Shown here in pieces: positions 10,559 to 46,358 of a stretch of 64,000 nt of DNA. Source of the stretch: Eretmocerus hayati. Its lineage: Eukaryota > Arthropoda > Insecta > Hymenoptera > Aphelinidae. The stretch spans positions 87,968,748 through 88,032,747 of the forward strand of contig CM056742.1 of assembly GCA_029851415.1 (NCBI GenBank), written 5' to 3'. The notes under the pieces are model-generated. The model did no database searches, had not been told where the DNA came from, and saw only the letters and a list, made by a program, of their open reading frames with translations. Position 1 is the first letter of the stretch; every line of letters begins with the position of its first letter. The translations under genes were made by a program, and so were the position numbers.

Positions 10559-10800
10559 CAGGGCTTTCTCCAAAACAAAACAACACAGTAAAAATCGGTT
10601 TTGTTTCGTTTTGAAATCCAGATCGAAACGAAAATACTCATTGATTACGTTTCGTTTTGCCGAACCGAAACATTATCAACAACATGGTCGTCAAAGTTAC
10701 GCATAAACGAAACTAAACTCTTCAATTTTGTTTTGTTTCTTCATTCACTATCACGAATATGTTTTGGTCTGATTTTGTTTCAATTTGTCGATACATAACC
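10559..10800. repeat. Left terminal inverted repeat and subterminal motifs of the giant hAT
   Basis: The first about 22 bp match the inverted right end with one difference. The next 200 bp hold several copies of TTTTGTTTCGTT/CGAAACGAAAA in both orientations. Clustered subterminal motifs are the usual transposase-binding sites of hAT elements; binding here is inferred. Confidence 0.8.
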
Positions 10801-12040
10801 AATTCGTCACTATTTTTGTTTTTGTGGTTAACTTCCAAAACAAAATCAAATGTGTTCTGCCTAATGTTATATGAAAATATGAGCCAAAATCTATGCATAC
10901 TCTTCTACCTAATCACATGGTAACCGAGTATTTCTTCTCACAAATTAGATTTCCTCGCCACGAAACAGAACTGAGTATCTTGATGAAATTCTCTGAAATC
11001 TCAGATCATAATTGAGATCAATATCCCATTTGATTGACGTTTGTAGGATTCTGCAAAGAAAATATGTCACCGTCGGCAAGAACAAATGCATGGACTACGC
11101 ACAAACCATTTTCGATTGGTGTTGCTCGCACCCAGTGCTATGAATGAATTATTCTATAGCCCAAGCATACACGGCTCATCCATAAAGCTGCTCGTACATG
11201 GAGATGCAGTTTAAATCTCGAGCATAGATTCGCTCAAAATGAGAGCGATGGAGCGCAATGAATTCTACCTTGGATGATTCCGAAAATCTAATCTGACACT
11301 GCTGAGCGTTCGTAACATGTCACCTAGTTCTGACTCAAGTCGCTGCGGGGGTGTGGCGATTCGGGTTGCCAAAAACTGATTTTAGTGGGAACTGGTGTTT
11401 CTTTGATATTTCAAAGGCACTGAGCACGAATTTGGCGTTGTCGAGCTTCGATATTGTGTCGCGTAGGTGACTGCGGGGGTGGAGCTTTGGGCGTTAGAAT
11501 TTGATGTCGCGTCACTAGAAATAGTATTTTGGTGTCATTGCAGTCACGTTCATGCTGCCCAAAGTCTTTCTAATTACTTGAAAAGAGTGTTTTACATCCA
11601 AAAAATACTGATTTAAGAAACATATAGGATCAAATCGAAAGAAAATGACAAAATTAACAATATTATTAGGAATGAAAGAGCATGGAATCCCCCAATACAT
11701 GTAGATGAGTGCAAAGCACAGACTGTCTTGGAAAATTTTGTGTAAATTGTGTCCATCATGACAATTCTGTCAGTGAAGAGTATTATTCGAAACCTGTAAA
11801 GGTCGAAAATTCGAATTCGAAGGACTGCGTGTTACTTATGCTTCTGGGCAAAACAAGAGCGTTTCGATGATTTCACATTCCTCAGAATATCCATCTGGAT
11901 ATCCACATCATTTTTATTCAAGATACATTCGAAAATGATCTACATGAATAGTTTATAGCCTAAAATTAAATAACTTCACATCACAGTCATATTACATCAA
12001 CTAGACACACAAATTATGCATAATTGATTCTCATTTCAAA
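10801..12040. other. Region between the left hAT terminus and the transposase 3' end, no gene recognised
   Basis: Short open frames only. Two related CTGCGGGGGTG-containing stretches near 11,340 and 11,470 suggest a degenerate local duplication. Confidence 0.35.
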
Positions 12041-12316
12041 CCCTCAGCTGGCACACTCCCGCCAAATAACATAGCTGGCACTGTGGGGTCGATTTGACCC
12101 CAATAGAAGAATTTGTGCTGTTACCGTCACAACCTATATTTTGACTTGAAACTTTCTTATAGCATCTTTGGTATATATTTGATCGTACAATGTACCCAGG
12201 TTTTTTCCAAGAACAAATAAAAAATTAAGAAAGAACAAATGGCTGGAAGAATGCAAAAAATGACTGTTTTTGCTTAAAAAATGAGGCTCATTCGACCCCA
12301 CAGTGCCAGCTAAAGG
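12041..12316. mobile_element. piggyBac-like MITE, about 276 bp
   Basis: The left end begins CCCTCAGCTGGCAC. The right end reads GTGCCAGCTAAAGG followed by TTAA, giving inverted termini that also contain a GGGGTCGA / TCGACCCC pair. The TTAA on the right and a degenerate CAAA on the left fit the TTAA target of piggyBac-type elements. There is no transposase inside. It lies just downstream of the hAT transposase stop. Confidence 0.65.
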
Positions 12317-12570
12317 TTAAATAGTATTTTTGATGAAACAACAAGGGAATTCAGATAATGTTCAGAGGCCTCTTCGACTTTTTACACTTCAGTGTGACAT
12401 TTTGATCATCACAATTATAACATTGAGAACATAGTAATTCCACTACGAAATCACCGCAATACAAGAACCATCAATAATTGTGCTGGAAGGAACAGTGAAG
12501 CAATAAACTCAAGATAAAAAAAACTTGCCAAGACTTTCTTAACAATGGGTAGAGCTTTCGGTGAGAATTT

Positions 12571-16000: not shown

Positions 16001-19000
16001 ATATTTTGACGTATTCTTCAATATTCCAGCTTTTTGGGCCGAAAAGACCCCTCATGAAAAACTACTAGGAGCTGTGGATCTCTTGTAGCCGGAATTCGTC
16101 GTTAATTCAAGGTGGATGAACAGCCGACTGGATCTGATAATAAGACAGTTGTAGCTCAAGAAAATCGATTCATAAAAACACTGCACCGCTGCTGGAGCGA
16201 TCGAGTTGAAATTATTCACAGAAGTAATCCTATTGATCCAAATTAATCGAGAAATCAGAACATGTGCTCCAAATCCTTACAGGACGATTGATTTTCCTAA
16301 GAAATTAGATTACTCTATGCGCACTGAAGTTGCAAAAGAGCGAGAAATTTATTCATGTTTGTCGTATGGTGATAGCAAAATATAACTACTATCAAGACCA
16401 CGCGGGAGTGTATTCAACTTCCAAACCAAAGATGAATGCATTGTTCTCTGACACGAAAGAATATAATTTGATGGCTCACAAAAACCGGATTAATCGCTTA
16501 TTCACTGCGGTTGGCACTTTATATGCGGCAAACAAGACAAAATACTCAGATCAGAATGATTTGAAAATATTACGACGTATGATTCATCCTATAAACGACA
16601 TACTAACCGTACCTATAATGATCGCACGCCAAGAAGTGGTCCAGCATCAGATAGTCTAGCTGAGCGTCGCATAATTCGAAAATTTTGACAAAGGTAAACG
16701 GCACGAGCAATCAAAGCATGCAGGGAATTTTGGCTCGCGAAAGTCATTTGATTGCAAATATTGATGACATCTTACAGACCTGTAACTTTTTCGATGCTGC
16801 TTCAAATGGAGCCAAAGCGTTCAAACAGTTGTTGATGTTCTCCCACTCTGGAGCAGTGATCCGAAATTCCGGATGATCAGTAGCTAAATGAGCGCACAAA
16901 GCTCTGGCTCTTACTACACCCTTAAACATTTTGCAATTCGAGTTCCACCTCGTTACAACATCCAAAGGTGGTCTTGGTACTCCGAACTCTTCCCGGTGTT
17001 TATTCATAGATTCTTGTCTGAGGTTTTTAGCAACTTGCCGCACCTTTTTAAACAAAATAATATAATGTGCATAAGTTTCACTCATCAGCTCTTAATTCTC
17101 CTCTTTGACGTGATTTATATAAAAAAAGAGGTGTACAACGTTCACAACTTGTAAATACTTCATTTATGAAATTATGATGAATTTGATTGTGAAGCTAGAA
17201 TTTTTTTACGGCCCTGGAGAGACTGATAGCGAGGTCGGTAAAATGTTGATAATCGAGGAGGAATAAATGAATAGTCGAGAAAATTCACACACTTTGATAT
17301 CAATACGAATCAGTCATTGTTTGACTCACTCGGGGCGTGCACTGCTTTAGGTTCACTCGTTAGTGTATGCATATTGTCAAATTATATAGTAAGTTGAAAG
17401 CTCCTCGATCAAATTTAGAGAATTTTGAGGAGCAAACTCTTGAGGTTCAACCACTGCGTACTCGAAGCTCGATCAGATATTCCGTATGAAGCAACCCCAA
17501 AACCCAAGATGGCGAACCAACCCGCAAATAACTGGATGCTCTGGTTCCGATTCCGGTCGGTGAACAAAAATCAACCCAAAACCCAAGGAGCCAATCAAAC
17601 CCGCAGATAACCATACGCACGGATCGAAAAATCTGCCGAAGTAAATGAGCCTCAAATTCTGCAAATGATTGGATGCTTGGATTGGGAATTCGGTCTGAGG
17701 AAAGATCAACTCGAGAACCAAGGGAGGTAATCCAACCCGTAAATGACCGGATGCTCAGATTCGGAATAATATCGGGGATGAAATCAACCCCAGAACCTAG
17801 GAAGGCGATCAAACCCACAGATCATCGGATGCTCGGATGGAGAATTATGTACGGGGACAAATCTATCCCGGAACCTTGAGAGGCAATCAAACCCGTCGAT
17901 AACCGGTTGCTCGAACTGGAAATTATGGCGGAAGAGTTTCGACTCCGAAGTCTAGGGTGACGATCATATCCACAGATTACCATATGCTCGGATCGATGAA
18001 TCTGCCGCTGTAAAATCAATCCCAAAACTCGGAGCAGCAATCAAACCCGCAGGTGACCGGGTGCTTTCACCAAAAAATTCCGTCGAGAGGGGAGGGGAGG
18101 GGAAGATTTTCTCATATCCCAGAGAGGCAATCAAACCTGCAAGTAATGCTTGGAATGGAAATCATGTCGGAGGGGGGGGGGCGGGGTTAGCTCCAGAAGA
18201 AGGGAATTAAATACGCAGATAACCGCATACTCCGGCGAGGAATCCTCTTGGTGCGGAATCGACCCCATGAACCTGGGAAGGCAAACTAAACCACAGGTTA
18301 TACAATGCTAGAATTCGGAATTCTGTACGGAGAAGAACCAACCGTTGAACATAGGAAGACAATCGAACCCGGAAGTAACCTGATACTCGGACTTAGAATC
18401 ATATTGAGGAGATAATCTACCTCAAAATAAAGGAAGCAAATGAAACCCGCAGATAACCGTATGCTGAGAATCATGGAAGCAGTCAAATCTACAGGGATCT
18501 GAGACGGTTGTGGGGTTGCCTACACACAGGCACTTTTTATTCCAAGATGGCCGATGAAGGGGGTAATTTTAACATTGCGTGCATAGGCCGGTACGTGATT
18601 TCAAGTTCCTAGCTCACCCGGGTCGTCAAATCCCCATAGAACGCAGAATTCAGAAGAGCAGATCGTAACATAGATGTTCTGTGTTAGACCGAGTGAAAAG
18701 AGACGTCGATGAAGCAAACCCCTATCTTACCAATGCTAAATCTGTTCCGTTACGCAGCCATTTCACTCCTGTTCCCAGGCAACCCGACATCGATGTCAGA
18801 TCCCTATCCCAAAGCCTCACGAGCTGATCGAACCCGCTGATGACTGGATGCCCGAGATGGAAATCATGTCGGGGGAAAAGTCAACGCGCAAGCCTAGGAC
18901 GGCAATCAAATCCACAAATAATTGAATACTCGGACCGATCAATCTGCCGCTGCAAAAACAATCCCAAACCCCGGATCGGCAGACAAACCCGCAGATAACC

Positions 19001-22000
19001 GCATGCTCCAACGAGAATTCTTTAGAGCGAAGGGGGGAGGGGGTATCAACACCAGAACCCAGGAAAGCAGTCATACCCGCAGGTAATAGAATCCTTGGAC
19101 TGGGAATTATGTTGGGGGAGGAATATATTCCAAACCAGTAAGGCAATTAAATGAGCAAGAGACCGTAAAGTTCAGCGGGGAATTCCCTCGTGCCAAATCA
19201 ACTCCATAAACCCAGGGAGGCAATCCAAACCATAAGTAACCCAATGCAGAATTCGAAATTCTGTTCGGAAAAAAACCAATTGTTGAACCTGGGTAGGCAA
19301 TCAAATGCGGAAATAACCGGATACTCGGACTGGAAATCATATCGAAGGAACAATTCACCTAAAAAAGAAGGAAGCACATGAATTTCGCAGATAACCGAAT
19401 GTCGAAAATCATAAATGGAATCAAATCTATCCCAAAGCCTCACCAGCTGATCAAACCTGCTGATAACTGGATGCCCGAGATGGAATATACGTCGGGAGAA
19501 AAGTCAACCACCAAACCTAGAAAGGCGATCAAATCCATGGATGAAACTATATGCTCAAACCGATAAATCTGCCACTGTGAAACCAATACCAAGAGCCGGA
19601 GAAGCAATCCAACTCGTTCATTCCAAACCCTTGGACTGACAATTCTGTCATGGGGCAAGTCAACCCCATAACTCGGAGGGGGGGGGGGGTCATACGCGAA
19701 AATAACCGGGCCCCGGGACGGAAATCCTGTTGGAGGTATGTCAACTCCAGGAAGAAGTCAACTAACCCCGCAAATAACCGTACGCTTGGACCGAAATGCT
19801 GTCGATGCAAAATCGACCCCAAAAACTCTGGGAGGCAATCAAACCCGCTAACAATCAGATTCTCAGACTGCATATCCCTCCCTGGAGAAAATCAACCTCA
19901 GGACCCAGGTGGACAATTCAACTCCCAGATGAGCGGATGCTCGGGCGGATAATTCTGTTAAGGTGAAATTGACCCGATGTACTTGAAAAGGCAATCTAGC
20001 CTATAGGTAACTCGATGCAAGGATTCAGAATTCTGTCAGGAGAAAAATCAACTGTTCAACCTCAAAAGGCAATCAAACCCGCAGATAACCGGATGCTCAG
20101 ATTGAGAATCAGATGGAGGGGATAATAGATCACGAAACTTAGGAAACCCAATGGAACCCGCAGACAACCTCATGCCGGGACTGAAAATTATGTAAGAACA
20201 CGAATCTATCCCGAAACCTTGGAAGGCAATGAAACCCACCGATAACCGGTTGCTCGGACTGTGAACCATGCCGGGAAAAAATCAATCCTGAAGCCTAGGG
20301 AGGCGATCAGATCCAAAGACAACCATACGCTCGGATCGATGAATCTACCGCTGTAAATCTAATCGCAAAATCCAGAGAGACAATCCAACTCGCGAATCCC
20401 AGACCCTAAGACTGAAAAGTCAGTCGGGTGAAAAGTCAACCCCATGACTCGCGGGGGGGGGGGGGGTCGAACCTGGAAGTAATCGGGTCTCCGGATCGGA
20501 AATTCTGTTGGAGGTGTATCTTCTCCAGAACCTAAGAAGTCATCCAAACCCACAAGTCACCGTATGTGTGGACCGAAAATTCTGTCGGTGCAAAATTGAC
20601 TGGAAAAACGCTGGAAGGCAATCGAACCCGCAAACAAGCAGATTCTCAGACCGTGAATCTCTCCCGGGGAGTAATCAACCCCAGAACCCAGGAGGGACAT
20701 CCAACCCATATATAACCGGATCCTTGGGCGGGAAGTCCTGTTGGCGCAAAATTGACCCCATGAACCCAGAAAGGCAATCCAACCCACAGGTAACCGATTG
20801 CTATGGTTCGAAATTCTGTCAGGTAAAAAATCAACCGTAAAATCTAGGGAAACAGTTCAAACCGCGTGTAGCTGGATAATCCGGCTAATAATTCTGTCGG
20901 GGGAAAAGTCAACGCCAGAACCCAGCAGGGTGATCCGACTCGCTAATAACCGACTAGAAATCATGTCGTGATAGAAATCAACTCCAAAACCTCGGGAAGG
21001 CAATGAAACTCGCAGGCCAATTTGACCGGGTACATCTAGGATATGTATTACATTCTATGCGTCTACCTCTGCTTTCGCCGTCGCATCATTTAGGGGTCGA
21101 CACAGAGATTGCATTGAAAGTCTCTTGATTTCCTGAATGAAGCCAGAGCCACTCTCTTGGGATCTCTTCACATCATGCCATCAGAATCGGATGATTTCGC
21201 AGTTCACCATACTCTATGTGACCACGTGATATAAGATATCCATTCTCCTTCAGCCTGTGCATTCTGTGGAGGACTCCACAATGATCCAGAGTGAACACTT
21301 CTCACGAGACGGCATAAAACTCAACGGTGTTGGATTTTTCGTTCATTGTCAAGAATTGAATTTTCATAATGTTAGTATAAGCAAATCGCAAAACTATTCA
21401 TCACATTACCATAACCTCTATTAAATCAGAGTGTTTCCACGGAGATCGAATGGATAACTCCGCGTCATAAAATTTTGAAACAGTGACGCAATCAACGAGT
21501 GGAATCCAGAAGTACTGTGTCAACAGAGTTTAGTTAAATTCGCACATACATGGATGAGTGTGCCCGACTTGCCACTATCAAACCATTTTTTCAACAATTC
21601 TGTTCTTTGTCAACATATTCCAATTTGTTTTCAGATCATTTTGAAGCTTCTTTCGAGGACTTTGGGATGAGTGAAAGTGCCCCTGATGTAGAAGGAGTGG
21701 AGTTGATCTATCTTCATTCCCTCTGACAGAATTTACGGGCTGAGCATCCGGTCATTTGCAGTTTTGATTCCTCTCATGAGTTTTGGGGCTGATATGCCTT
21801 CGACAGGAATCTCGATCCGAACTCTCGGCTATTCGCAAGTTGGAGTGCCCCACGGTTCTTGAGCTGGATTTGTCACAATCAGATTCTGTACTCTCAGGTT
21901 CGATCTCCTTCCTAGAATTCGAGGTCTCGCGAATTGGACGGCAGTCCCCGGTTTTGGAGTTAAGTTTCTCATCGACGTAATTTTGGTCCGAGTATCCGGT

Positions 22001-25000
22001 TCCGGGGTTGATTTCTCCCCCGACATGATTTTCAGCCTGAGTATCCGGTTATTCGCCAGTAGGATTGCCCTCCTTGACACAGGGATTTAAGTTCCAGATG
22101 TGGCTACGTGGCCGTAAATATCGCACGCGAACGACCACATTCGCGTTCACAAATTCCCCCACGTATTCAAGCCCGAGAGCTGTCCCGTTCGCGTACACAA
22201 CCAGGCGTCTCAGAGTGCCCTAGACTCACGATTCGCGTACGCAAATTTGAGACAACGATTGGAACTACTCGAATATGCGTATGCTCATGGTAAAAGCACC
22301 CAAAATTCGCGTATGTAACCGATTTTTAAAAGTTCGCGTACGCGATTCACCTGATGCACCGATACCAATCCATCCGCATACGAATGGTCTCAAAAAGATT
22401 CGCATACGCGAATTCGTGTATGAGGCATTTGCCTCCAGAAATCGCGTGCGTGAACCACAATTCCATTATCCGCGTACGCTGACCGACTTTTAGAGATTCG
22501 CGTGTAAAATCTTTCCAACCGGAATCAGCGTGCAATAACAAATCCATCGGGAGTCACGTGCGTAAACCGTCTCGCAGACATTCGCGTGTGGGCCTCTCCT
22601 TTCAGAATTCACGTGAATGAACCACGATTTCATTATTCGCGTACGCTAACCGACTCATGGAGATTTGCGCACACGACTTCACGTATAAGGTCACTCCTCC
22701 CGAAATTCGCGTGCGATCGACAATCCGCCGATTAACGCGTACTCGAAGTTGCGTATGAATCTCTCCTTCCAGGATTCATGTGAGTGGACTACAATTTCGT
22801 GATTCACGTACGCTAACCAACTCGTAGAAATTTGCGCACGCGAATTTGAATATGATCCGCTTAAGGATAGTCGCATACGCGAACCATCACGCGGAGATTT
22901 GCGCACCCGAATTTGCGTATGAAACTGCTCATGGACTGCCGCGTACGCAAACAGTCTCGCAGATATCCGCGTACGCGAATCCACGTATAGCGCAAGAATT
23001 AATACTGCAGAATCCCCGTTGATAGACCACAATCTTGATATTTCCGTATGCTAACCGACTGGTAGAGATTCGCGTACAAGATCTCTCCTCCCGGAACTCA
23101 CGGGTAAGAACCAGGGAGCTAATATTCGCGTACGCACAATGACCTGTAGAAATTCGCGTGCGTGAATAAGCCTTTAAAACCGCTTTCTACAGAATTAGCG
23201 TGTATGAGCCTCAATCCCATCGTTCGCGTACGCTAACCAACCCGTAAAGCTTTGCGTATGCGAATTCGCGTATGAGATCTCCCTCTGCGGAACTCGGAAG
23301 CGATCACCAATACATCGATCGTCACAGACGCGAGTCATCTCGCGAAGATTCGCAAACGTGAATATCTGGCCAAGATTCACGTACGCGGGATTTCATGTGT
23401 GAACCATAGCTCCATTGTTCGCGTACGCTAACTGACTACGATACATTCGCGCACGCGAATTTGCGTATGAGAACAACAATTCCGTTATTTGTGTGCGCTC
23501 ACTGACTACTGAGAATTTTCGTACGCGAAATCTTGGTCAGATCTCACCGTCCAGGATTCGAGTAAGTGAATCACAATTACATTATCCGCGTACGCTAAAC
23601 GACATGTAGAGATTCGCGTATAAGATCTTCCCAAGCGGGATTCGCGTGCAATTACAAATCCATCGGTAGTCACGTGCGTGAACCGTCTCGTAGAGATTCG
23701 CGTGTGGGCCTCTTTTTCCAGGATTCACGTGAATGAACCACAATTCCATTATTCGCGTACGCTAACCGACTCATAGAGATTCGCGTACGCGACTTCACGT
23801 ACAAGATCGCTCCTCCCGGAACTCACGGGTAAGAACCAAGGAGCTAATATTTGCGTACGCGCAACGACTGGTAGAGATTCGCGTGCGCGAGTAAGCCTTT
23901 AAAACCGCTCTCTACAGAATTAGCGTGTGTGAGCCACAATTCCATCGATCGCGTATGCTAACCAACTCGTAAAGCTTTGCGTATGCGAATTCGCGTATAA
24001 GATCTCCCCTTACAGAACTCGCAAGCGATCATCAATACATTGATCGTCACAGACGCGAGTCATCTCGCAAAGATTCGCAAACGTGAATACCTGGCCAAGA
24101 TTCACGTACGCGGGATTTCATGTGTGAACCACTCTCTCAACATGAATCAGCTAACACGAACGGATTTTGACTGAAAATCAGATATTTTAGCTGATTCTCA
24201 GCTATTGTAGCTGATTTTCGGTTAAGATCCGTCCACGTTAGCTGAAAATCAGCTAAAATAGCTTATTCATGTTGAGAGAGCACAGTTCCATTGTTTGCGT
24301 ACGCTAACTAACTACGATAGATTCGCGTACGCGAATTCGCGCGTGAGTACAACAATCCCACTATTTATGTGCGCTCACTGACTACCGAGAATTTTCGTAC
24401 GCGAAATCTTGGTTAAATCTCACCCTCCAGGATTCGAGTGAGTGAACCACAATTACATTATTCGCGTACGCCAACCGACTAATAAGGATTTGCGTAAGCA
24501 AGTTGAGGAATGAGATTCTTCCGCCCGGAATTTACTTGTAAAAAAAAGAACCCTAATATTCGCGCACGCAGATATTGGCGTTCTGCTCCTTACACGCGTT
24601 CTGGAACTGAGAGAGATCCATACGTGAATTCGCGTACGCGAATTTTCACAAGCCGGTTAGCGTACGCGAACAATGAAATCGTTGTTGTCATACGCGAATA
24701 TTCAGGTGTCAGTTTGAGTATGCGATGAACGAAACTGTGGCTCACATACGCGAATTCGGAAGAAAGCGGTTCTAAACGGTTTCCAATCTCTGCGACTTGG
24801 TTAGCGTACGCAAATAATGAAATTGTACTTCACTCGCGTGAATTCTGGAACGAGAGACCCATACGCCAATTCGCGTACGCGAATCTCTGCTAGACGCTTC
24901 GCGTACACGACAATCGATGGATTGGTGATCGCACTTGAATTCCGGAAGGAGAGATTTCGTATGCAAATTCGCGTCCGCGAATCTTTACAAGTCGGTCAGC

Positions 25001-29820: not shown

Positions 29821-29821
29821 G

Positions 29822-30263: not shown

Positions 30264-30297
<34 letters not shown>

Positions 30298-30419: not shown

Positions 30420-30453
<34 letters not shown>

Positions 30454-30479
30454 GTCCGTCCATCCGTCCATCCGTCCGT

Positions 30480-30512
<33 letters not shown>

Positions 30513-32042: not shown

Positions 32043-32239
32043 GTTTAATTATAAGAATACGGAAGTTTTCTATTGGAAATTCAGAAATATGATGTTGCAA
32101 AATATCGTTATGCTCAAATAAAGTGATTTCTAGTAGGCCAAAGAGATGTACATCGATTTGACGTGAATTAATTACTCAGTTGGTTACAGGGATAAAAATA
32201 CAAGTGACACTCAAAATTTTCATTCTGGGCCTTACTTCG

Positions 32240-35200
32240 TACTAAGATCAATATCACCAATGTCACCTGCTTGAGCCCATCGCGGATACACGTACTCTTT
32301 GAAGTTTAGCGAGTGTAAGAACAGTCGACGCAGAAAGAGGTGAGCTGCACAATATCATCGTGGACATTCACATCTGAAGAAAACATCGTAAGCGCAAATA
32401 ATTCCATCAATATTTTGATTACTCGTTTTTCTGAAATCGATAGAATTGTGGGAACAGGAAAGTCGAAGGTGTTCGAATGATTCGAATAGAATAGGAACAT
32501 AATGAATAGAAAAACAGAATTTTCTCCGAGCCTTCAGAAAAAAAGAAAATGTAAGAGATGAAATTTTTCCGGGCTTCGACAAAACAAATATATAAAAATG
32601 AAAATTGAAAAATTTCTCGGGATTTTGAAAAAACAAAAATATAAAAAATTATTTTATTTTCCAAAATATTTTTCCGGAAATTATCAAAATTTCCCACCGT
32701 GAAGCACATCCTGAACTTGCCTTCATTCTTCTTAGTCTCACTTAGAGGAACGCTCAAACAGAGCCACAGTCGTCTCCTCGCTGCCTTCAAAAACACATAC
32801 GCGCGCGAGAAGCATCAAACAACGTGACACCAGAAAAGGAAAGGGAATTCTTAGTGATGCGCGCTCTCTCAACAGCCCGCAGTCATCTTCTCAAGCCCGT
32901 CGCGAACACACGTGCTCATAGAAGTTGAGCGAGTATAAAAACAGTTGACACATAATGAGGTGAGCTTGCAGAATATTATCGTTGACATCGACATATAGGA
33001 AAAACATCGTACGGGTAAGTAATTCCATGGATAATTTGATTAATCGTTATTTCTGAAATCAATATAGAACGAAAATATATTGGATAGAAATCCGGAATTT
33101 TTTCCGGACCCTCAATAGAAAGAAAATGTGGAGAATGAAAATTCAAAAATTTTTTGGAAATTGAATGAAAATTTTTTCCGGGGCTTCGACAAAACAAATA
33201 TATAAAAAATGAAAATTCGAGAATTTTTCGGGACTTTGAAAAAACGAAAATATAAAAAATTGTTTTTTTTTCAAAAAATATTTCCAAAAATTTTCGAAAT
33301 TTCCCACTCTGAGGCACATGCTGAACTTGCTTTAATTCTTATCAGTTTCAGTTAGAGAAACGCTCAGGCGTTGGAGCTCTCTACTGAAGCCGCATTCTCC
33401 CCCTCCCCGCCTTCACAGACACAGACACGCGTCGAGAAGCATCACGACACCAGAAGAGGAGAGGGGATACTTAGTATCGCGCGCTCTCTCAACAGTTCGC
33501 AGTCTTCTTCTTGTGCCCAGCGCAAACACGCGTTTTCTATGGGGTCGAGCAGGTATGACAAAAGTCGACGCGGAACAGAGTCAGCTTACAAGATGGCATC
33601 GAAGAGATCAACATACATAGAGGACATCATGAAGGTAAGTGATTTCAACCTAAATCTCGAAATTCATTCTTTCCGAAATCATTAAAACTAAGGAAACGAT
33701 AACGTCGAGAATTCCAATAGTTCAAATTATCTGAATGTATGTAACATGAAATTTGAAAATTTTTTGCGACGTTTCGACAAAACAAATATATGAAAAATGA
33801 ATATTCGAAAATTTTTCGGGACTCTGAGAAAACAAAAATATAAAAAAAAGGTTTTTTTTCTCGAAAAATTTTCCCAAAAATTTCCAAAATTTCCCACTCT
33901 CAGGCACATTCTGAACTTGCCTCAATTCTTATCAGTTTCAGTTAGAGAAACGCTCAGGCATTCGCGCTCTCTACTAAAGCCGCATTCTCCCCCTCCCCGC
34001 CTTCACAGACACAGACGCGCGCCGATCATGTCATGACACCAGAAGGGGAGAAGGGATACTGAATGATGCGCGCTCTCTCAACGGCCCGCAGTCATCCTCT
34101 GGAACCCGTCGCGAACACGCGTACTCTATGCGGTTGGGCAATCATAAGAAGAGTCAACGGAAAATGAGGTGAACTTGCAAAATATCATCGTGGACACACA
34201 ACATTTATAGAATGGCTGAAGGGTGAGTAATTCGATCATTTATTCAATTACTTGTTTTTCCTTGAATCGTTAGAGTTACGAGGACATAAACGTCGAGAGT
34301 TTTGATGATCTAAATAGATGAAAGATACAATGAAAAAATTTCAAGATTTCGTCCGGGGCTTTGAACACAAAGATATGAAATATAAAAATTAGAAATATAA
34401 AAAATTGATTTATTTTTGAAAATTTTCCCCAAAAATTTCCGAAATTTCCCACCATGAGACAATTCCTGAACTTGCTTCCATTCTCATCAGTTTCAGTGAA
34501 AGAGACGCTCAGATATACGCGCTCCTTATCGGAGCCGCAATCTTCCCCTCGCTGCCCTCGGAGACACACACGCATCGAGAAGCGACAACGTCACACCGAA
34601 AAAGAGTGGGGATACTTAATGATGCGCGCTGTCTCAACGGCCCTCAGTCATCATCTAGAGCCCGTCGCGATCACACGTACTCTATCAAGGGGGGCAATCA
34701 TAAAAAGAGTCGAATAAAATGGAATACACTTGCAGAATACCATCGTGGACATCAACATTCATAGAACGTCTAGAAGGTGAGTAATTGCATCATTAATTCA
34801 ATCACACGTTCTTCCTCAAATCGTTAAAGTTGTAATATCGTGAACGTCGAGAATTTTGATGATCTGAATAGATTAAAGATTTAATGGAAACATTCCAAGA
34901 TTTTGTCCGGGGCTTCGAAAACAAAGAGATAAGAAATAAAAAATTGGAAATTTTTACGGGATTTTGAAAAAATAAAAATATAAAAAATCGATTTTTTTTC
35001 GAAAAATTTTCCCGAAAGTTTTCGGAATTTTCCACTCTAAGACACATCATGAGCTTGAGTTCATTCTCATTAGTTTCAGCGGAAGAGATGCTCAAACATA
35101 GGCGCTCTCGACCGAAGCCGCAGTTTTCCCCTAAATAGCCTCACAGACACACGCATCAAGAAACGACAACGTCACACCGAAAAAGAGCGGGGATACTTAA

Positions 35201-38200
35201 TGATGCGCGCTCTCTCAACGGCCCTCAGTCATCCTCTGGAGCCCGACGCGATCACACGTACTCTATGCAGGTGGGCAATCATAAGAAGAGTCGAATACAA
35301 TGGAATGAGCTTGCAGATATCATCGTGGACATCAACATCTATAGAACGTTTGAAGGGTGAGTAATTCTATCATTTATTTAATTACCCGTTTTTCCTTGAA
35401 TCATTAGAGTTATGAAAACATAAACGTCAAGAATTTTTAGTGATTTGAATAGATTGAAGATATACTGAAAAAATTTTGAGATTTTGTCCGAAGCTTCGAA
35501 AACAAAGATATAAAAAATAAAAATTCGAAATGTTTACAGGATTTTGAAAAAACAAAAATAAAAAAAATTATTTTTTTTTCAAAAAATTTTCCCAAAAATT
35601 TCCAAAATTTCCCACTCTGAGGCATAAGCTGAACTTGCCTTGATTCTTATCAGTTTCAGTTAGAGAAACGCTCAGGCATTCGCGCTCTCTACAGAAGCCG
35701 CATTCTCCCCCTCCCCGCCTTCACAGACACAGACGCGCGCCGATCATGTCATGACACCAAGAGAGGAGAGGGGATACTGAGTGATGCGCGCTCTCTCAAC
35801 GGCCCGCAGTCATCCTCTGGAGCCCGTCGCGAACACACGTACTCTATGCGGTTGGGCAATCATAAGAAGAGTCGAATAAAATGGAATGAGCTTGCAGAAT
35901 ATCATCGTGGACATCAACATCTATAGAACGTCTGAAGGGTGAGTAATTCCATCATGTATTCAATTACTCGTTTTTCCTTGAATCATTAGAGTTATGAAAA
36001 CATAAACGTCAAAAATTTTTAGTGATTTAGATAGATTGAAGATATACTGAAAAAATTTCAAGATTTTGTCCGAAGCTTCGAAAACAAAGATATAAAAAAT
36101 AAAAATTCGAAATTTTTACAGGATTTTGAAAAAACAAAAATAAAAAAAATTATTTTTTTTTTTCAAAAAATTTTCCCAAAAATTTCCAAAATTTCCCACT
36201 CTGAGGCATAAGCTGAACTTGCCTTGATTCTTATCAGTTTCAGTTAGAGAAACGCTCAGGCATTCGCGCTCTCTACAGAAGCCGCATTCTCCCCCTCCCC
36301 GCCTTCACAGACACAGACGCGCGCCGATCATGTCATGACACCAAGAGAGGAGAAGGGATACTGAGTGATGCGAGCTCTCTCAACGGCCCGCAGTCATCCT
36401 CTGGAGCCCGTCGCGAACACACGTACTCTATGCGGTTGGGCAATCATAAGAAGAGTCAACGGAAAATGAGGTGAACTTGCAAAATATCATCGTGGACACA
36501 CAACATTTTTTGAATGGCTGAAGGGTGAGTAATTCGATCATTTATTCAATTAATTGTTTTGACTTGAATCGTTAGAGTTACGAGAACATAAACGTCGAAA
36601 GTTTTGATGATCTGAATAGATTAAAGATTTAATGGAAACATTCCAAGATTTTGTCCGGGGCTTCAAAAACAAAGAGATAAGAAATAAAAATTTGGAAATT
36701 TTTACGGGATTTTGAAAAAATAAAAATATAAAAAATCGATTTTTTTCCGAAAAATATTCCCGAAAATTTTCGGAATTTCCCACTCTGGGACATATCATGA
36801 GCTTGAGTTCATTCTCATTAGTTTCAGCAGAAGAGACGCTCAAACATAGGCGCTCTCGACCGAAGCCGCAGTTTCCCCCTAAATAGCCTCACAGACACAC
36901 ACGCATCGAGAAACGACAACGTCACACCGAAAAAGAGCGGGGATACATAATGATGCGCGCTCTCTCAACGGCGCTCAGTCATCCTCTGGAGCCCGTCGCG
37001 ATCACACGTACTCTATGGAGGTGGGCAATCGTAAGAAGAGTCGAATAAAATGGAATGAGCTTGCAGAATATCATCGTGGACATCAACATCTATAGAGCGT
37101 CTGGAGGGTGAGTAATTCTATCATTTATTTAATTACTCGTTTTCCGTTGAATCATTAGAGTTATGAAAACATAAACGTCAAGAATTTTTACTGATTCAAA
37201 TAGATTGAAGATATACTGAAAAAATTTCAAGGTTTTGTCCGAAGCTCCGAAAACAAAAATATAAAAAATAAAAATTCGAAATTTTTACGAGATTTTAAAA
37301 AACCAAAAATAAAAAAAAATATTTTTTTTTCAAAAATTTTCCCAAAAATTTCCAAAATTTCCCACTCTGAGGCATAAGCTGAACTTGCCTTGATTCTTAT
37401 CAGTTTCAGTTAGAGAAACGCTCAGGCATTCGCGCTCTCTACAGAAGCCGCATTCTCCCCCTCCCCGCCTTCACAGACACAGACGCGCGCCGATCATGTC
37501 ATGACACCAAGAGAGGAGAGGGGATACTGAGTGATGCGCGCTCTCTCAACGGCCCGCAGTCATCCTCTGGAGCCCGTCGCGAACACACGTACTCTATGCG
37601 GTTGGGCAATCATAAGAAGAGTCAACGGAAAATGAGGTGAACTTGCAAAATATCATCGTGGACACACAACATTTATTGAATGGCTGAAGGGTGAGTAATT
37701 CGATCATTAATTCAATTACTCGTTTTTCCTCGAATAGTTAGGGCTTCGAAAACGAAAATAAAAGAAATAAAAATTCGAAATTTTTACGGGATTTTAAAAG
37801 AACGAAAATATAAAAAATTGTTTTTTGTTCGGAAAATGTTCCCAAAAATTTGCGAAATTTTCCACTCTGAGAAAATTCCTGAACTTGCCTTTATTCTAAT
37901 CAGTTCCAGTGGAAAAGACGCATAAGCATACGTGCTCTCTCCCGGAGCCGCAGTTCTCCCCTCGCTGCCTGCACAGACACACATAAGCGACGAGTAAGAT
38001 CAAACAACATTTCAACAGAAAAAGAGAAGACAATTAGTGATACGCGCTCTCTCAGCAGCCCACAGTATAGCCCTTTGCACGGTCACGAACATTCGTACGC
38101 CAAAGAGAAAATCAAATCCAAGAAAATCCTATGTGGATATATAAGAAGAACTTATAAAATACCATCGTTAACATTGACCTCTACTACACAATAATGAAAA

Positions 38201-38205
38201 GGTAA
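32240..38205 (+). repeat. Tandem array of about 11 units of 555-620 bp, each with an exon-like border
   Basis: An anchor (CGCGAACACACGTACTC) recurs near 32,281, 32,901, 33,520, 34,110, 34,664, 35,249, 35,829, 36,413, 36,998, about 37,578 and, diverged, 38,086. About 100 bp after each anchor lies a splice-donor consensus on the plus strand (GTAAGT or GTGAGT in ten units, GTAAGC in the first). About 290-330 bp later most units have a pyrimidine-rich tract ending TTTCAG before AGAGAAACGCTC. Unit 2 has a TATA-like GTATAAAAACAG at about 32,933. An ATG lies a few bases before the donor in several units. I read it as a repeated promoter/first-exon or exon unit. No long coding frame exists within a unit. 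Confidence 0.75.
38138..38145 (+). promoter_or_regulatory. TATA-like box upstream of the small candidate gene
   Basis: TATATAAG about 55 bp before the ATG at 38,194. Its position matches the TATA-like box of unit 2 of the array relative to that unit's donor. Promoter function is inferred. Confidence 0.4.
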
Positions 38206-38708
38206 GTAATATCTATCAAAACATCATTTCCCATGTTCTCTAAAATTGATAATAGAACCAAACATCAAAATACAAACCTTTTCCGTAATTTTATAAAATC
38301 ATGTACATGATAGATAAAAATTCAATTTTTTTCCGAAATAAAATCGAGAAGTGAATTAGATTTCCATAGTCCCAATCGAAACTGATGAGTTACCTCCAAA
38401 GACAGAATTTCCGGGCTCTACGATTCCAATTATTAAGTTTTTCCACAATAGAGATATCTTGTAATATCACGAAATTCAGTTGAATTGACAACTCATCCAT
38501 TAAATTGACCCCAATGAGGAGTTCAGTTTCATATCAAGGTCTATCATCCCACAGGCATCCAGATATCAAATGTGAGAATCACCCAGTGAAGGATTTACAA
38601 AAAGTTTTCAACTCAACGTGTTACAACCGTTCCAGAAAGATCAACAAAATCAAAATTACAGTCAGATGGCATGGATCCAAGCACAAGAGAATGACAAAAA
38701 TCAAATAA
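38194..38708 (+). CDS. Candidate two-exon gene for a 53-residue basic peptide
   Basis: Exon 1 coding part is 38,194-38,201 (ATGAAAAG|GTAAGT). Exon 2 is 38,555-38,708, after CTATCATCCCACAG. The join keeps frame and gives 53 residues: two Cys (9 and 25), about one third Lys/Arg/His, a KVFNSTCYNRSRKINKIK core, no obvious signal peptide or membrane segment. A TATA box (TATATAAG, 38,138-38,145) lies about 55 bp upstream of the start, and AATAAA overlaps the stop. It uses the last unit of the upstream array as its first exon. I recognise no family. It could be a cargo gene of the giant hAT, or a chance frame; there is no expression evidence. Confidence 0.35.
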
Positions 38709-39118
38709 AACAAGGGAATCCATAACACCTCTGGAATCGAATCAACTTCCGAAGACATCAAATGTGAGTTTCATGTATCAACCCGTGTGACTCCTTATTG
38801 TGAAATATGTATAGAATTTTAATTAGATATAGATCTATGGAAATTTTTCGAATATCATGATTCTATGAAATCGTCGTCGGAACATTAGATTCATTAGTTT
38901 TTCAAAGAACGTAAGCACATAATAGCCTTTATTTCTTTACTAAATTGGTATGCATGGTATCTCACAAATGTATCCTTGATCTTACAATTTCATTTGAGGC
39001 TAATTTTGATTACAAAAAAAATCAAATCATCTTCGTCACACATCTCAACAAATGATTCCCAACAATACACATCACTTACATATCCAAGTGCAATCGAATA
39101 CATTTACAAGTTGTAACA

Positions 39119-39330
39119 GGACTGTATGATGCCATGGCTCACATAGAGATCGAGACTATCATCTCTGAGATCGACATACTACAATCTCCTGTTGCCAAGC
39201 TGCTGTAAATGTAGGGTATTCTTCCAAAAAAACAACACAACACACTTACACCACTCTTCGGAAACATGTTGTTGGATTTCCTCTGATCTGAGCGCCGCTT
39301 TGGTCCCGACACTGGTAAACCAAATCGACG
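39119..39330 (+). other. Exon-like block, copy 0 of the duplicated segment
   Basis: The acceptor-like TTTACAAGTTGTAACAG is at about 39,103-39,119. The donor CGACGG|GTGAGT lies near 39,330. One frame (LYDAMAHIEIETIISEID...SPVAKLL, then stop) shares DA[ML]AH and PVA[KQ]LL-stop with copies 1 and 2, although those have an internal stop. It may be an old terminal exon. Confidence 0.35.
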
Positions 39331-40335
39331 GGTGAGTCTCATATGATCATGTCTCCTTCAACCTCTGTGATGGAGAGTTACATTTACACTGAAACGATAT
39401 ACACGGACCGATTCACACTCAATTTCACTCCATATCACACAACGACGATGATAGATCGATATTTTTGTTCATTTCAATAAAATCTTCCGCAAATATCACC
39501 AGTGGTTATAAAAATATAGATCAAGGTATTGTTAAAATTAGTGCGTTCCTAGAATCGTATATCAAATATCCATAATTTCATTTATATATTCGTTTGTTAT
39601 CGAATATGATTGAGGATTATCATTGATCAATGTAGTGACTCCCATATGCGTTTCTCAATATTCAATCTTTTGTTATGACAATTCTCATTCAATTTGTACG
39701 ATGACTCAATTTTATCAACAAAACGGCAACAAACGATTCCCATACGATTGTATATCTCTCTATTATAAGTAATCAGGATGTAAGCATATAATTGTAATAA
39801 TGTATGATGAAACTTTTGTTTAGAATATCACGTTCCATACTCTATATGTGAATATGTTCAATATGGATTGTATCAATATCTGAATCTCCTGAAACTCGAT
39901 AAATAAAATCAAATGGTTGGGGAAATTGCCCCAACCATCCCCGTGTCGATTCATTTACTATAGAATAAGCATTCGAAAGAAGTACAACTCATTAAGCGAT
40001 ATTTTCGTACAATCTTCAATTGTACATTCTTTCAATCTCGAGTTAAAACATATGCTATTCATTATGAAATTCATACGAATTTTCAAAGAGAGCATGACTG
40101 ACTTTTTTAATATATTGAAGAATTTTGAGTACTAATTCCTGCTCATCTTGAATCAATTTCAAATCATTGAGAGAAACATATATGAATCCACTATCACTTA
40201 ACAAGATGAAATCATCGTCCCAATTTCATCAAAGAGTAAATGCATTCAAGTAACCTTCATTAACAGGATCCAATTCAAAACTTTGCTAATTACATATCGA
40301 TTCAACTCATCCTCGTCATACTTACTCAAAACTAC

Positions 40336-42023
40336 CACACCACACTTTTACGAGTTGCAACAGCACATGATGCCTTGGCTCATATGGGAGTTGGGTTTCT
40401 CATTCCCGAGTGCGACAGAGTGTGACTCCCTGTTGCCCAGCTATTGTAAAACAACAACACAATACTAACGCCACTCTTCGGAAGCATGTTGCTGGATTTC
40501 CTCTGATCTGAGCGCCGCTTTGGTCCCGACACTGGTAAACCAAATCGACGGGTGAGTCTCAACAGATCATGTCTCCTTCAACCTCTGTGATGAAGAGTTA
40601 CATTTTCACTCTGAACATAAAACACTCCCCAGTTTCAACTCAATTTCACATCATAAACACAAAACGAGGATGATGAATATCGAGGTCATTCCATCCAATC
40701 AAAGACTTCTCAAAAATTCAAATCTTGCGACGTAAATGCTCAATATGAAAACAAAGAACTTTCCTGATCAATGAACCCCAATAATCAATCTTAATGGCCG
40801 CGTTGCTAAAACCATCACAATGCATCAATTCAATTCTTCCCTCACGATTGCATCAAGCGAGTGATATTGGATTCATCTATAAAAGTCATTTTTAATACTC
40901 TATACGATACCGTTCCGCAATGTCAATTATCTATCCCTAAATCTTATGAAAATTACTTAAATCTTAAACTGGTCCAGAGAATTCTCTCAACCACTCCCCA
41001 ATAAGAATGACGCCCTCTAATGTAAACTTACAATCTTTAATTGAGTATTCTTTCAATCTCAAGTCAGAAAATATTCTAATCATCATTAAATTTCTACAAA
41101 TTTCCAGAAAAAGCATAACTGAATTTTTGAATAGATTGGGAAATTTTAAAAACCGATTTCAACTCAGATTGAATCGAATTACGAATCATTTAGAGAAATG
41201 AATATGAATCCACTATCACTTGACAAAATAAAGTCATTGTCCCAATTTCATCAAAAAGTACATACATTCACGTGATTTTTATCAACAGGATCCAATTCAA
41301 AGTTTTTCTGATGAGAAATATATTCAACTCATCCTCGTTATACTCACTCGAAAATACCACACCACACTTTTACGAGTTGCAACAGCACATGATGCCTTGG
41401 CTCATATGGGAGTTGGGTTTCTCATTCCCGAGTGCGACAGAGTGTGACTCCCTGTTGCCCAGCTATTGTAAAACAACAACACAATACTAACGCCACTCTT
41501 CGGAAGCATGTTGCTGGATTTCCTCTGATCTGAGCGCCGCTTTGGTCCCGACACTGGTAAACCAAATCGACGGGTGAGTCTCAACAGATCATGTCTCCTT
41601 CAACCTCTGTGATGAAGAGTTACATTTTCACTCTGAACATAAAACACTCCCCAGTTTCAACTCAATTTCACATCATAAACACAAAACGAGGATGATGAAT
41701 ATCGAGGTCATTCCATCCAATCAAAGACTTCTCAAAAATTCAAATCTTGCGACGTAAATGCTCAATATGAAAACAAAGAACTTTCCTGATCAATGAACCC
41801 CAATAATCAATCTTAATGACCGCGTAGCTAAAACCATCACAATGCATCAATTCAATTCTTCCCTCACGATTGCATCAAGCGAGTGATATTGGATTCATCT
41901 ATAAAAGTCATTTTTAATACTCTATACGATACCGTTCCGCAATGTCAATTATCTATCCCTAAATCTTATGAAAATTACTTAAATCTTAAACTGGTCCAGA
42001 GAATTCTCTCAACCACTCCCCCA
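40336..42023 (+). repeat. 1,022-bp tandem duplication carrying an exon-like block
   Basis: Sequence from about 40,336 to 41,000 is nearly identical to about 41,358-42,022 (offset 1,022), with more diverged flanks. Each copy holds an acceptor-like CACTTTTACGAGTTGCAACAG, about 190 bp of exon-like sequence and the donor CGACGG|GTGAGTCTCA (near 40,551 and 41,573). Copy 0 at 39,119 is older. The minus-strand 60-codon frame identical in both copies is explained by recent duplication. Confidence 0.85.
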
Positions 42024-42029
42024 TATGAA

Positions 42030-43040
42030 ATGACGTCCTCTAATATCAGCATGCGAGATAGACGTGAACCGCTTCTCTTTTCATATTTTCATAAGTTCGA
42101 ATTTCAAAAGAACGTTTAATTTCTCCTCCAAATAGAAATAAATTCAAAAACTCCAAAGTATTACGTAGGTTCACACTCGGTATGAGTAGAAATACGAAAA
42201 TCGTCATCTTCAAAGTCAAATAAGAAATTCCTCGAATTTATTCAAAAAAGTTTCAAAAATTTGAAATCCATTCGTATGTATCATATATTCAAAATCAACG
42301 AAATAACAACCTCTCGATCTTCAACATTCCATCACTTTGTCAGTACGATTCGACTTCATCGTCACTCTATCACTTATTTCATTCGAAATCAACCAATACT
42401 CATGCGGATCGATCTATCTCTAACGAAAAATTAAAATGAAAACCATTAAATAAAGCTAACTCGAACACCAAAATTAATTCACATCTGAAAGTGAGGCGGC
42501 CTTGTCAACCGTAAAAAGTTACTCGGCTACCTTCGATGTTGAAAATGGCGGTGTCTCGAATTTTCTAATACGCTTCACTAAAATACGCCATAAAATGACT
42601 CCCAGCATGCACTTAATACGAAAATAGATAAACGAAACACATAAAAATCGATTGCTCCTAACCTTCGCCAACGGATTCGGAAGCTTGGGCAGTGTTCGAA
42701 AGGGCTCCGTGAGACCGATCAGCGACCGTCTTCACGGCAAGAATTAGCAGCAAATCGAATATATAATATCAACGTATGAATACATATAAACTGGATTGGA
42801 AATACATATAAAAAACTCAAAAATACGTCAAAAATACGTAAACGACACTCAAACACGTGTTCTATACATCGCGGAAAAATCTAGGGACATTTGACCTGGT
42901 CTAGGGACTTTTCGTGCCGTCAAGTTGGCAACACTGATTCGATTTTATGTTGGCAACCCTGATATAGGGATTCCGTGGGGGAATAGGCACCTTGTGTCTC
43001 TTAATATAATAATTGTGCTACTCTGAGCGCAAAATTGGGC
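42030..43040. other. No gene recognised; possible minus-strand exon near 42,670-42,750
   Basis: A CTAGGGAC motif is repeated at about 42,891 and 42,921. On the minus strand an open stretch ends at GGCGAAG|GTTAGG, a weak donor, but it has no start codon. Nothing firm. Confidence 0.3.
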
Positions 43041-43049: not shown

Positions 43050-44495
43050 CATTTACACGCTTGTGTGTTATGTGATGGATTCCATTTGGAAACGACACAT
43101 GAAAGATAGTGATGTCTCAGGTCGGTTTCTCGTAATTCTTATCCGATTCTATGGTCCATACTATCCCACTTGGAGGACCCGAAAAAATTTTGGAGACGCA
43201 TGCGAAGCTATTTTTTGTTTTGCTTTTTGATTCCACCAGAGAATGAAAATCATGTACCTTTCACAATGAATTGTATTCATCTCGAGTTTGGCTCAAGATA
43301 ATGCAACGTGGCTTGCGCCAATCGGAAGATCTTGAAAGAACCTATCGAAAATGACCACGAAAATTTTCGTTCAGCTATTTCAGGCCCTGATCAGGCAATA
43401 TCCGGAAAAATCAGGTTAGCTTGATTGTCTGGAAGAGCAATTTTTTCTATCTTTCCTCAAATATGATTCCTCATGCCAAATTGCGCGATCTTTGCGATGG
43501 AATCAGTCGGAAGTTGTTTTTTTGCTGTTTTATGTATTTTTTGGTCAATTTTTTGATATTTCATTCTCTGACCCATCAAAGCATAGCGATTTCGGCGCAT
43601 GCGCGTGGTTCTACGAATCCCAAAGTACTCTCAATCGAGAGCTGAGAAAATTTCCCTGCTCGAGATGACTACTTCCCGAGATCAATTTTGTCCAATGGGA
43701 CTGGAGATACACGTCTCTCTAGACATCAAGGTTATTCATATCACCAACACCATGGACGCAGAGGAAGGGCTTAAATATAAAGCTCCGGCCCAGGGTAGGT
43801 AGGCCATCTCGCTCCAACCATTCCTCTTTTCCAATCAAACTGTGGTGGCTACTAATTGAGGACATGAAATCGACTTGGCAAGGGGGCATTTTGAAGGAAA
43901 TTTCCTCAGCTTTTTATTGAGACTACTTTGAAATTAGTAGAACCACGCGCATGCGCAGAATTCACTATTCTCTGATTGGTCAGAGAATGAAAAATCAAGA
44001 AATGTGCCAGAAAACGCATAAAACAGCAAAAAAACAACTTCCGATTAATTCTATCGCGGAAATCGTGCAATTTTGTATCAGGAATATTATTTTAAGAAAG
44101 TTGAAAAAAATTGCTTTTTCAGATAATCAGGATACCCTGATTTTTCCGGAAAATAGCTGAGCGAAAATCTTCAAGGTGGTATCCGATAGAGTTTTTTAAG
44201 ATCTTTCGAATGGCTTGAACCGCGTTTCATTATCTTGCGCGAAATTCGAGATAAATGCGATTCATTGAAGAAAGATCACCTGTGATTTTCATGCTCTGGT
44301 GGAATCAAAAAGTCAAACAAAAATAGCCCCGCAGGTGTCTCCGACGTTTTTTCGGGCCCCCCAAATGGATGAAAAGTTCGTATAATGGACCATACAATCG
44401 GATGAGAATTACGAGAAACCGATCTGAGACATCGCTATTTTTCATGTATCATTTTCAAATGGAATCCATCATGTGCACATGGCGAATAGCGTGCA
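43050..44495. mobile_element. Long inverted repeat (arms about 640 bp), family P copy 1
   Basis: The left arm (GATGGATTCCATTTGG at 43,074 ... GCTGAGAAAATTTCC at about 43,645) is the imperfect reverse complement of about 43,850-44,470; centre near 43,772, loop about 150 bp. The arms contain CGGCGCATGCGCGTGG near 43,590 and its complement near 43,945. The inner arm matches the palindrome at 62,210-64,000, so both belong to one family. No protein is recognised. Confidence 0.8.
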
Positions 44496-44499
44496 CAAT

Positions 44500-46149
44500 G
44501 GTGGAAACTGTGCGCAAATATTTTCTTGCACACGTCGCAAACCGCCAGTTGCAAGTCGGTCATTTGGCAAAGCCGCAAAAGAAAATCCATGCGCCAATTT
44601 CGTTTGCGCGTGGAAAATATGATCTCTTTGAACTGAAAATTAAACTTGGAACCGTGTTTTCGAGAATGTGGAGTGTGAGTAGAAAATCAATGGCATTTTT
44701 CCGAATTACGACGATTTGATTCCCGTTGCCCCTCATTTCGACCAGTGTCGTGTATATGGCCAAAAATCGAATCGAATGGCCCTCTCAGATTGTTGCCCCA
44801 ATAGATAATATTTGTATCTCAGAACATGTTCGCACTGGTTTGAGGTCGAAGAAGACAAAACTATTTTTTTTGATCGAGCTCAAAGCATGTCATAATTCAC
44901 GAAACTGCTCAACTTGTAACGACTGTAACTTTTATGAAAAGTACGATGATCGGCTTTCACCAGTGGTCGAATTGTAGGTTATTTCAAGACCATGAAAATG
45001 GGCACTGGTGAACGTCAATTATCACATGTCCAGTAGGAGCTAGATCACTCTGGAGCAGGCCCAAGAATCGCTAAAATTTTCTCTCAGTCGATAGCTTCTG
45101 AAAGTTGTTAGGCTTGATGACCGATCTTAGACATTTCTCTCCTAGAAAGTACTAGTTTTTACAAAAAGAATGTACTCAAATACGTTCAAACAGGTTGAGT
45201 CTATTCAGAGTTATGATTTTCTAAAATTATAGTACAAAGGGGCCTAAAATGGACCATTTGCGGCCGTCTGGCCCATAGAAACTTTTGAAAAAATCCAGAA
45301 AAGGTTGTAAATACGATCTCAAAAAAATTTGGGATTTTTTCCGGTCCTGGTAACGGCCCTGAACCAGATACTCCGAAATCGCCTACATACGTTCCTCGAT
45401 TTTCGTAGGTTTAGAAATGCCGTGAATCATCACTGAAAATTTACGTGATACGTCAAAGTTTTCAATTACACCAAGCAAGCCACCACGTTCTAATTGAAGC
45501 TGCAAACAAAACTCAGGGCGATGATTGTCGGAATTATTTTAAACAACAACCATCTTTCTGGGTCAATAATTTTTCATGGGAAATTCAAAGTGAAGGATCC
45601 ACGTTTTTGAAACCTTCGTGGAGTTTCAATGATTCAATGGCATGATTCGAGTACTAAGGGGTTATGTTTCCTGGTTAGAGGTTGACATTGCAGACAATAT
45701 TTTGATGTGCGCCAAAGCAAAATGTATCCGAGTGCTTAGCGCTCACTCCGATCTCCGCACTAATATTGATGCAATCCATATCCTTGCAGAGACTTGCAAA
45801 TTTACTAAATATTTTTGAGGGGATATGATATAGAGGAGGCAACACCCGACACAAATATCGAGTTTCTCTAGCATTAAAATGAAAATTAGTTGTACTTACT
45901 CATCCATGTTATTTGCCTCACTCCGGCATATAAAGGTCTTGATCTCAAAATGATCACACGGGATAATATTTGAGTCAATGAAACTCCTAAAACATCCTTC
46001 ACTTAAGCGTCGATCAATATCCACAAACACCACTCACAGATTTCACCGCGCATCAAATTACTCAAACTCTGAGAAATTTGTTTTGGTATCAATCAACGTT
46101 ACCCCCGCCGATTTCCTTTCTGTTTTGTCTCGCTGCCCCAAATCTCTCA
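44500..46149. other. No gene recognised
   Basis: Low-information sequence with short frames only, between the palindrome and the right subterminal region of the giant hAT. Confidence 0.4.
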
Positions 46150-46358
46150 ATCGGCTTGGTTATGTTTTGATAAATAAACCATTGGAGAATCAAAACAAAA
46201 CTTGAATCAAAACGAGGCTAGTTTTCGTTCGGAAACGATATCAAAACAAGAGGTGTTTTGTTTCGTTCAAAAAAAAACGAAACCAAACTATAACATGATC
46301 GAAATTGATTCGATCTGAAACGAAATGAAACATAAATTTTGTTTTGAAGAAAGCCCTG
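46150..46358. repeat. Right terminal inverted repeat and subterminal motifs of the giant hAT
   Basis: It ends AGAAAGCCCTG. Several CAAAACAAAAC/GTTTCGTT motifs (for example near 46,200, 46,257 and 46,300) mirror the left subterminal region. Confidence 0.8.

Follow-up and report, generated by a model that had tools for sequence, protein, structure and literature searches.

Oversized hAT transposon copies in Eretmocerus hayati have probably moved with a load of nested mobile DNA

We analysed a 64,000-bp stretch of the genome of the hymenopteran insect Eretmocerus hayati (C2:87968748-88032747 in an assembly of 692 Mb and 17 contigs), hereafter the window, in which a hAT transposon of 35.8 kb interrupts a retrotransposon (Table 1). 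hAT elements are generally treated as small transposons. An initial annotation of the window had reported matching ends, an exact 8-bp target duplication and a hAT transposase inside, and all three were borne out. The terminal repeats, CAGGGCTTTCTCCAAAACAAAA starting at 10559 and, reversed, CAGGGCTTTCTTCAAAACAAAA ending at 46358, are identical at 21 of 22 positions, with a local alignment score of 39 against a maximum of 31 among 200 shuffles. The duplication GTTAAAAC is an exact 8-bp match on the two sides of the element. When the flanks were joined over one GTTAAAAC they read ...KKYHIELK/RLRAKCIRLSRVLYRNY... in a single retrotransposon frame, as the annotation had claimed, with a reverse transcriptase domain after the insertion site (48234-48731). 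The interrupted open reading frame (ORF) is not itself intact, as a stop codon lies 13 codons upstream of the junction.

The transposase gene was modelled on the minus strand as six coding exons (E0 to E5), with splice joins worked out by hand from the sequence. The predicted exons join in phase and their splice sites are plausible, apart from the E3 acceptor. E0, at 29.4 kb, was recognised from its resemblance to related loci of the hAT type elsewhere in the genome (E 6e-6 to 6e-7); it is conserved and was preferred to a first zinc-finger exon proposed at 44.5 kb. E0 and E1 share between them a CNEPNC...HLHRVH zinc finger that is conserved in the related loci. A Pfam scan without E0 gave no BED match, the scanned sequence thus holding only part of the finger. 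The hAT C-terminal dimerisation domain (PF05699) was found inside the element (E 1.2e-14) and on the joined exons (E 5.5e-14), whose best match among solved structures was Hermes (E 2.6e-4). The SDNG and VERLFS motifs align with TDRG and SERTFS of Hermes, which we take to hold DDE catalytic residues, in a comparison of these two motifs. The related loci (C1:107.11, C4:78.47, C1:100.69 and C2:168.35 Mb) show the same exon order at ~34-52% protein identity and span ~5-7 kb; their search listed 46 matches, with the best 70 of 195 candidates scored. Judged by the defining features tested, the element belongs to the hAT superfamily.

The initial annotation had proposed searching the genome with the element's ends for further copies with 8-bp duplications and a shared interior. 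Genome-wide, a 300-bp left-end query matched five places and a 300-bp right-end query six, the window counted, and two more complete copies, B and C, were recovered. All three complete copies are flanked by an exact 8-bp duplication, of a different sequence in each. In each case the flanks, once joined, read through: besides the retrotransposon frame of the window, copy B shows an unbroken satellite register (period 174/348 bp) and copy C a 133-aa open integrase-like frame, with a weak match to an integrase core in its left half (E 0.049, below the Pfam cut-off). Similarity among the copies ends exactly at the terminal repeats and the flanks are unrelated. By this pattern the three copies are separate insertions.

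A genome-wide census of the terminal repeat, allowing up to two mismatches, found 13 sites and only one in a backwards control. The sole convergent pairs within 40 kb were the copies of 23.8, 35.8 and 39.9 kb. The giant size claimed for the element thus stood, and the possibility raised with it, that all other copies are short, failed. No short two-ended copy appeared in the census at this threshold, which short elements with more decayed ends would escape. The seven remaining sites were single. No partner end (a matching 8-mer beside a CTG-like end) was found in ~39 kb past C3:162.58 and C3:50.65 Mb, in ~29.6 kb past C1:95.3 Mb or in ~1.6 kb past C4:116.9 Mb; the single sites at C1:52.4, C2:41.0 and C4:114.7 Mb lay outside this reading, and very large or decayed relatives are possible there. 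A right-end match of 75% lies at C1:12.46 Mb (~1.6 kb read). A fourth relative, at C1:95.32-95.35 Mb, is one-ended: it retains 1.6 kb of right-end sequence (~94.5% identity), which a 7-kb insertion divides.

The interiors of the three copies were compared by blastn chaining. Of the 35,800 bp of the window copy, 24,158 bp are collinear with one or both of the other copies and 13,487 bp with both; the only stretches above 30 bp without a chained partner are 29855-30246 and 31745-42994. Non-coding identity is 96.97% between the window copy and B, 96.34% between the window copy and C and 96.56% between B and C. Such nearly star-like values are expected of three copies that departed from a single source more or less simultaneously. 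Copy B has gaps at window positions 11464-12480, 17364-19280 and 29854-30877 with, by eye, junction microhomology or filler and no duplication, and these are therefore read as deletions in B. Some 0.9 kb common to B and C, inside a ~2.2-kb stretch of B, is missing from the window copy. The shared interior thus points to a single moved unit of ~24.5-27 kb, the upper figure being an estimate. In copy C, positions 22006-37755 (~15.7 kb) hold a 519-aa open frame that by eye resembles a different hAT-type transposase, which suggests a second DNA transposon nested there.

The chief component of the shared interior is a foldback element of ~9 kb that lies in the E2-E3 intron. It is present in all three copies, copy B having lost the left end. 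Its inverted ends align at a score of 123 (shuffle maximum 26) and enclose 78-bp arrays, with 98/167-bp arrays inside them; its exact outer limits are uncertain, since relatives elsewhere match only from ~17424-17438. A 110-bp piece of the left end has 42 listed matches elsewhere (best 40 of 188 candidates scored); they comprise 18 inverted pairs, with 75% identity and spacings of 1.7-6.3 kb, as well as single sites, and on this distribution the foldback belongs to a dispersed family. The E2-E3 intron is 10.3 kb long in the window copy, whilst in a related hAT locus of the same genome only ~430 bp separate the matched parts of the corresponding exons. This short gap, together with the same load in all three copies, indicates that the load was inserted before the copies spread. 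Short inverted-repeat insertions resembling miniature inverted-repeat transposable elements were seen by eye beside the foldback (26339-26774) and inside it (24133-24281).

The second large component of the window copy is an 11.3-kb insert that looks like a non-autonomous relative of Helitrons, and we use Helitron-like as a label only. Canonical Helitrons have a 5' TC end and a 3' CTRR end. Like them, the insert lies between A and T with no target duplication, ends in CTAG at the 3' end of the minus strand, which fits CTRR, and occurs once head-to-tail with another copy. Unlike them, it begins with TTATTATATTAAG on the minus strand, thus with TTATT and not TC. The terminal 45 bases at its 3' end, where a Helitron would have a hairpin nearby, fold only weakly (-5.7 kcal/mol, a figure with no shuffle control behind it). 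No Rep-helicase gene, a feature of autonomous Helitrons only, was found, and there is no ORF of at least 150 aa in 31745-43012. Its right flank is T in five of five copies read, the window counted, and its left flank is A in four of four, this A being in one case the last base of the adjoining copy; right edges in four other copies stop at the identical base, and left edges were read in three. The insert contains tandem units of ~583 bp, seven of which include GGTGAGTAATT, a splice-donor-like sequence. Distances in three other copies of the insert imply about one, two and three extra units.

Table 1. Features of the hAT element in the window and positions of its complete copies. Window coordinates unless a contig is given.
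Feature	Position	Strand	Length	Remarks
Left target site duplication GTTAAAAC	10551-10558			adjoins element end
hAT element, window copy	10559-46358		35,800 bp	matching ends and 8-bp duplication
Left terminal inverted repeat	10559-10580	+	22 bp	repeat alignment and genome census
E5	13080-12571	-		hAT dimerisation domain and stop codon; acceptor TTCCAG/GAGG
E4	15118-14759	-	120 aa	acceptor GTTCTAG/GGT; donor CTCAA/GTAATT by eye
E3	17043-16780	-	88 aa	weak acceptor
Nested foldback element	17346-26338		~9 kb	inverted ends; 78-bp and 98/167-bp satellite arms; E2-E3 intron
E2	27800-27306	-	165 aa	SDNG and CAAH motifs
E1	28824-28480	-	115 aa	second zinc-finger half (NLTSHLHRVH)
E0	29510-29393	-		first zinc-finger half (HCNEPNC); donor AAAA/GTATGC by eye; 5' limit approximate
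CATC-type microsatellite region	29855-30876			missing in copy B; no chained match in copy C either for 29855-30246
Nested Helitron-like element	31745-43012	-	11,268 bp	A/CTAG...AATAA/T; no target duplication
Palindromic repeat inside hAT	43073-44471			also in copy B
Right terminal inverted repeat	46337-46358	-	22 bp	repeat alignment and genome census
Right target site duplication GTTAAAAC	46359-46366			adjoins element end
Copy B	C1:125964248-125988070		23,823 bp	two ends and exact 8-bp duplication CACTCGAT
Copy C	C4:107399010-107438898		39,889 bp	two ends and exact 8-bp duplication CTTGGATT

Taken together, these observations lead us to propose, with a probability of about 0.88, that an oversized hAT gathered other transposons in its non-coding DNA and stayed mobile as a unit of ~24.5-27 kb. 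A hAT with a spliced transposase gene would have taken up mobile DNA in non-coding places, its chief load being the satellite-rich foldback that landed in the E2-E3 intron. A hAT transposase would then have moved the unit to three or more sites, making the 8-bp duplications. The copies would subsequently have diverged singly: the window copy acquired the Helitron-like element and seemingly lost ~0.9-2.2 kb, copy B would have lost several stretches, and copy C would have lost some and gained others. One of the three copies may have supplied the transposase, the predicted splice sites may be in use, and a copy may still be mobile.

Several observations weigh against this proposal. There are only three complete copies, neither an excision nor a polymorphic empty site was observed, and gain or loss of unshared segments is judged from these three copies only. 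No first exon with an ATG was found. The transposase of copy C is broken: E5 is interrupted by a stop codon and by inserted sequence, E2 is truncated, and E1 was not found. Codon differences between the window copy and copy B comprise 17 synonymous and 27 non-synonymous changes, counted on ORFs extending beyond the E4 donor, and constraint on the transposase appears weak at best. Another copy of the insert matches the window at 97% over ~160 bp to its left but has a different right flank; we take this to mean that the same palindromic repeat was a target twice.

Weak constraint on the exons speaks for the alternative that the element was moved in trans by the transposase of another hAT, its own gene being a passenger. 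So does the presence in this genome of related hAT loci with the same exon order and ~34-52% protein identity. Exons E1 to E5 are nonetheless open in the window copy and in copy B, where E0 also reads open, so that two of three copies retain open exons free of insertions and deletions. Exon identity is 98.2% between the window copy and B, with no gaps in 1,966 sites against 1.63 gap openings per kb outside exons, and 97.9% between the window copy and C, with no gaps in 1,238 sites (E4 taken from 14764 in both counts). We regard movement in trans as rather unlikely.

The initial annotation held that the whole 35.8 kb either moved as one unit or grew after a smaller element had inserted. Movement of the entire 35.8 kb agrees with precise ends and a duplication that enclose its complete length. 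It is nevertheless very improbable, and we reject it, because copy B carries the exact empty site of the Helitron-like insert, TTTACTA/TTGTGCTAC, which equals the joined window flanks one substitution aside, and the insert has no collinear match in B or C. The insert is also young. A query covering its right-hand 4.9 kb (38100-42990) had at least 21 other full-length matches among the best 30 of 1,226 candidates scored, all at 99-100% identity, whereas the hAT copies are 3-4% apart. The empty site and this difference in age indicate that the insert arrived after the hAT had landed, as a separate insertion.

The other half of that claim, growth of a small ordinary hAT by nested insertions at each site after landing, fits the abundance of such insertions, of which the 11.3-kb one is clearly late. 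As a whole explanation it is scarcely credible and was rejected, since the foldback and intron content stand at matching places in three unrelated sites at ~96-97% identity, and the window copy shares 13.5 kb in collinear order with both other copies and 24.2 kb with one or both of them. What survives of the earlier view is the movement of the collinear part, and the late nested insert falls outside it. The satellites, which had also been thought to move along, divide in the same way: those of the intron are found in all three copies, whilst the ~583-bp units sit in the late insert. Segmental duplication or assembly artefact, to which a repeat-rich region lends itself, is just as improbable, given that similarity stops at the terminal repeats, that the flanks have nothing in common and that every copy comes with an exact 8-bp duplication of its own and a readable empty site.

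Possible cargo genes, also suggested by the initial annotation, were not supported. Eight ORFs of at least 150 aa lie within 10559-46358, namely three transposase pieces, four that overlap in the CATC-type microsatellite and one of 157 aa (27871-28344) of no known kind. No host gene was recognised among the eight, in a survey of unsplit ORFs of this length in which Pfam was run on the three transposase pieces only. The identifiable extra DNA consists of nested mobile elements and repeats. The label of a new class of mobile element was likewise too strong, and an oversized variant of hAT describes the element better.

If our proposal is right, three copies of ~24-40 kb with clean duplications would mean that natural hAT transposition moves several-fold the usual load, foldback satellites included. 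This is a possible route to the bulk spread of satellites and other transposons. It also suggests that repeat annotation could break such an element into many unrelated pieces. More tentatively, giant hATs might be living vehicles, in which introns and other non-coding DNA serve as landing pads and the load is moved by cut-and-paste. On the strength of its intact ends and open transposase exons, the full 35.8-kb copy could then conceivably still move together with the Helitron-like element, but we consider the vehicle reading as a whole doubtful.

Two further repeats lie to the right of the element in the window. The first, at 51273-57323, is a palindromic element of 6,051 bp that contains 536-bp repeats, has the ends CACTATAGTCGTCACATTCC and is bordered by an exact 5-bp duplication, GGGCG; DNA 83% similar to it lies ~1 kb from the single hAT-like end at C3:50.65 Mb. 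Fragments of a BEL/Pao-type retrotransposon (PF05380, E 2.4e-31) occupy 57975-61768.

The element resembles members of the hAT superfamily such as Ac, hobo, Hermes, Tol2 and BuT2 in its 22-bp terminal repeats, 8-bp duplications, multi-exon transposase and dimerisation domain. hATs are described as usually 2.5-5 kb long, with repeats of 10-25 bp and 8-bp duplications, and the BuT2 gene has five exons (PMC3942097). By contrast, the copies described here measure 23.8-39.9 kb, outside a length range that is typical of hATs but does not define them, and the window copy has an intron of more than 10 kb packed with nested repeats. Such a size is mechanically possible, since Tol2, itself a hAT, integrates a ~70-kb bacterial artificial chromosome (BAC) transgene (PMC2768751), and our copies would be a natural counterpart to laboratory Tol2 with BAC-sized inserts. 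The largest hAT-like composite met in the sources covered is ToxhAT of wheat-pathogenic fungi, at 14.3 kb about half the size of the copies here (PMC6737239). In another species, a 25.6-kb spacing between its repeats was attributed to further insertion (PMC9594970). ToxhAT bears a virulence gene, whereas no comparable gene was recognised in the window element. Very large DNA transposons are likewise known among the KDZ, EnSpm and Sola-1 elements of Ectocarpus, some above 30 kb (PMC12477816), and in the 180-kb, largely herpesvirus-derived Teratorn (PMC5601938), but these belong to other transposase superfamilies. In the text covered of a review of giant eukaryotic transposons (PMC6431247), neither 'hat' nor 'hobo' matched, and no hAT of this size was found reported in a literature coverage that left out most subscription papers and repeat databases. 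Within the literature covered, what appears new here is thus the size of a hAT and the mobility of its nested load.

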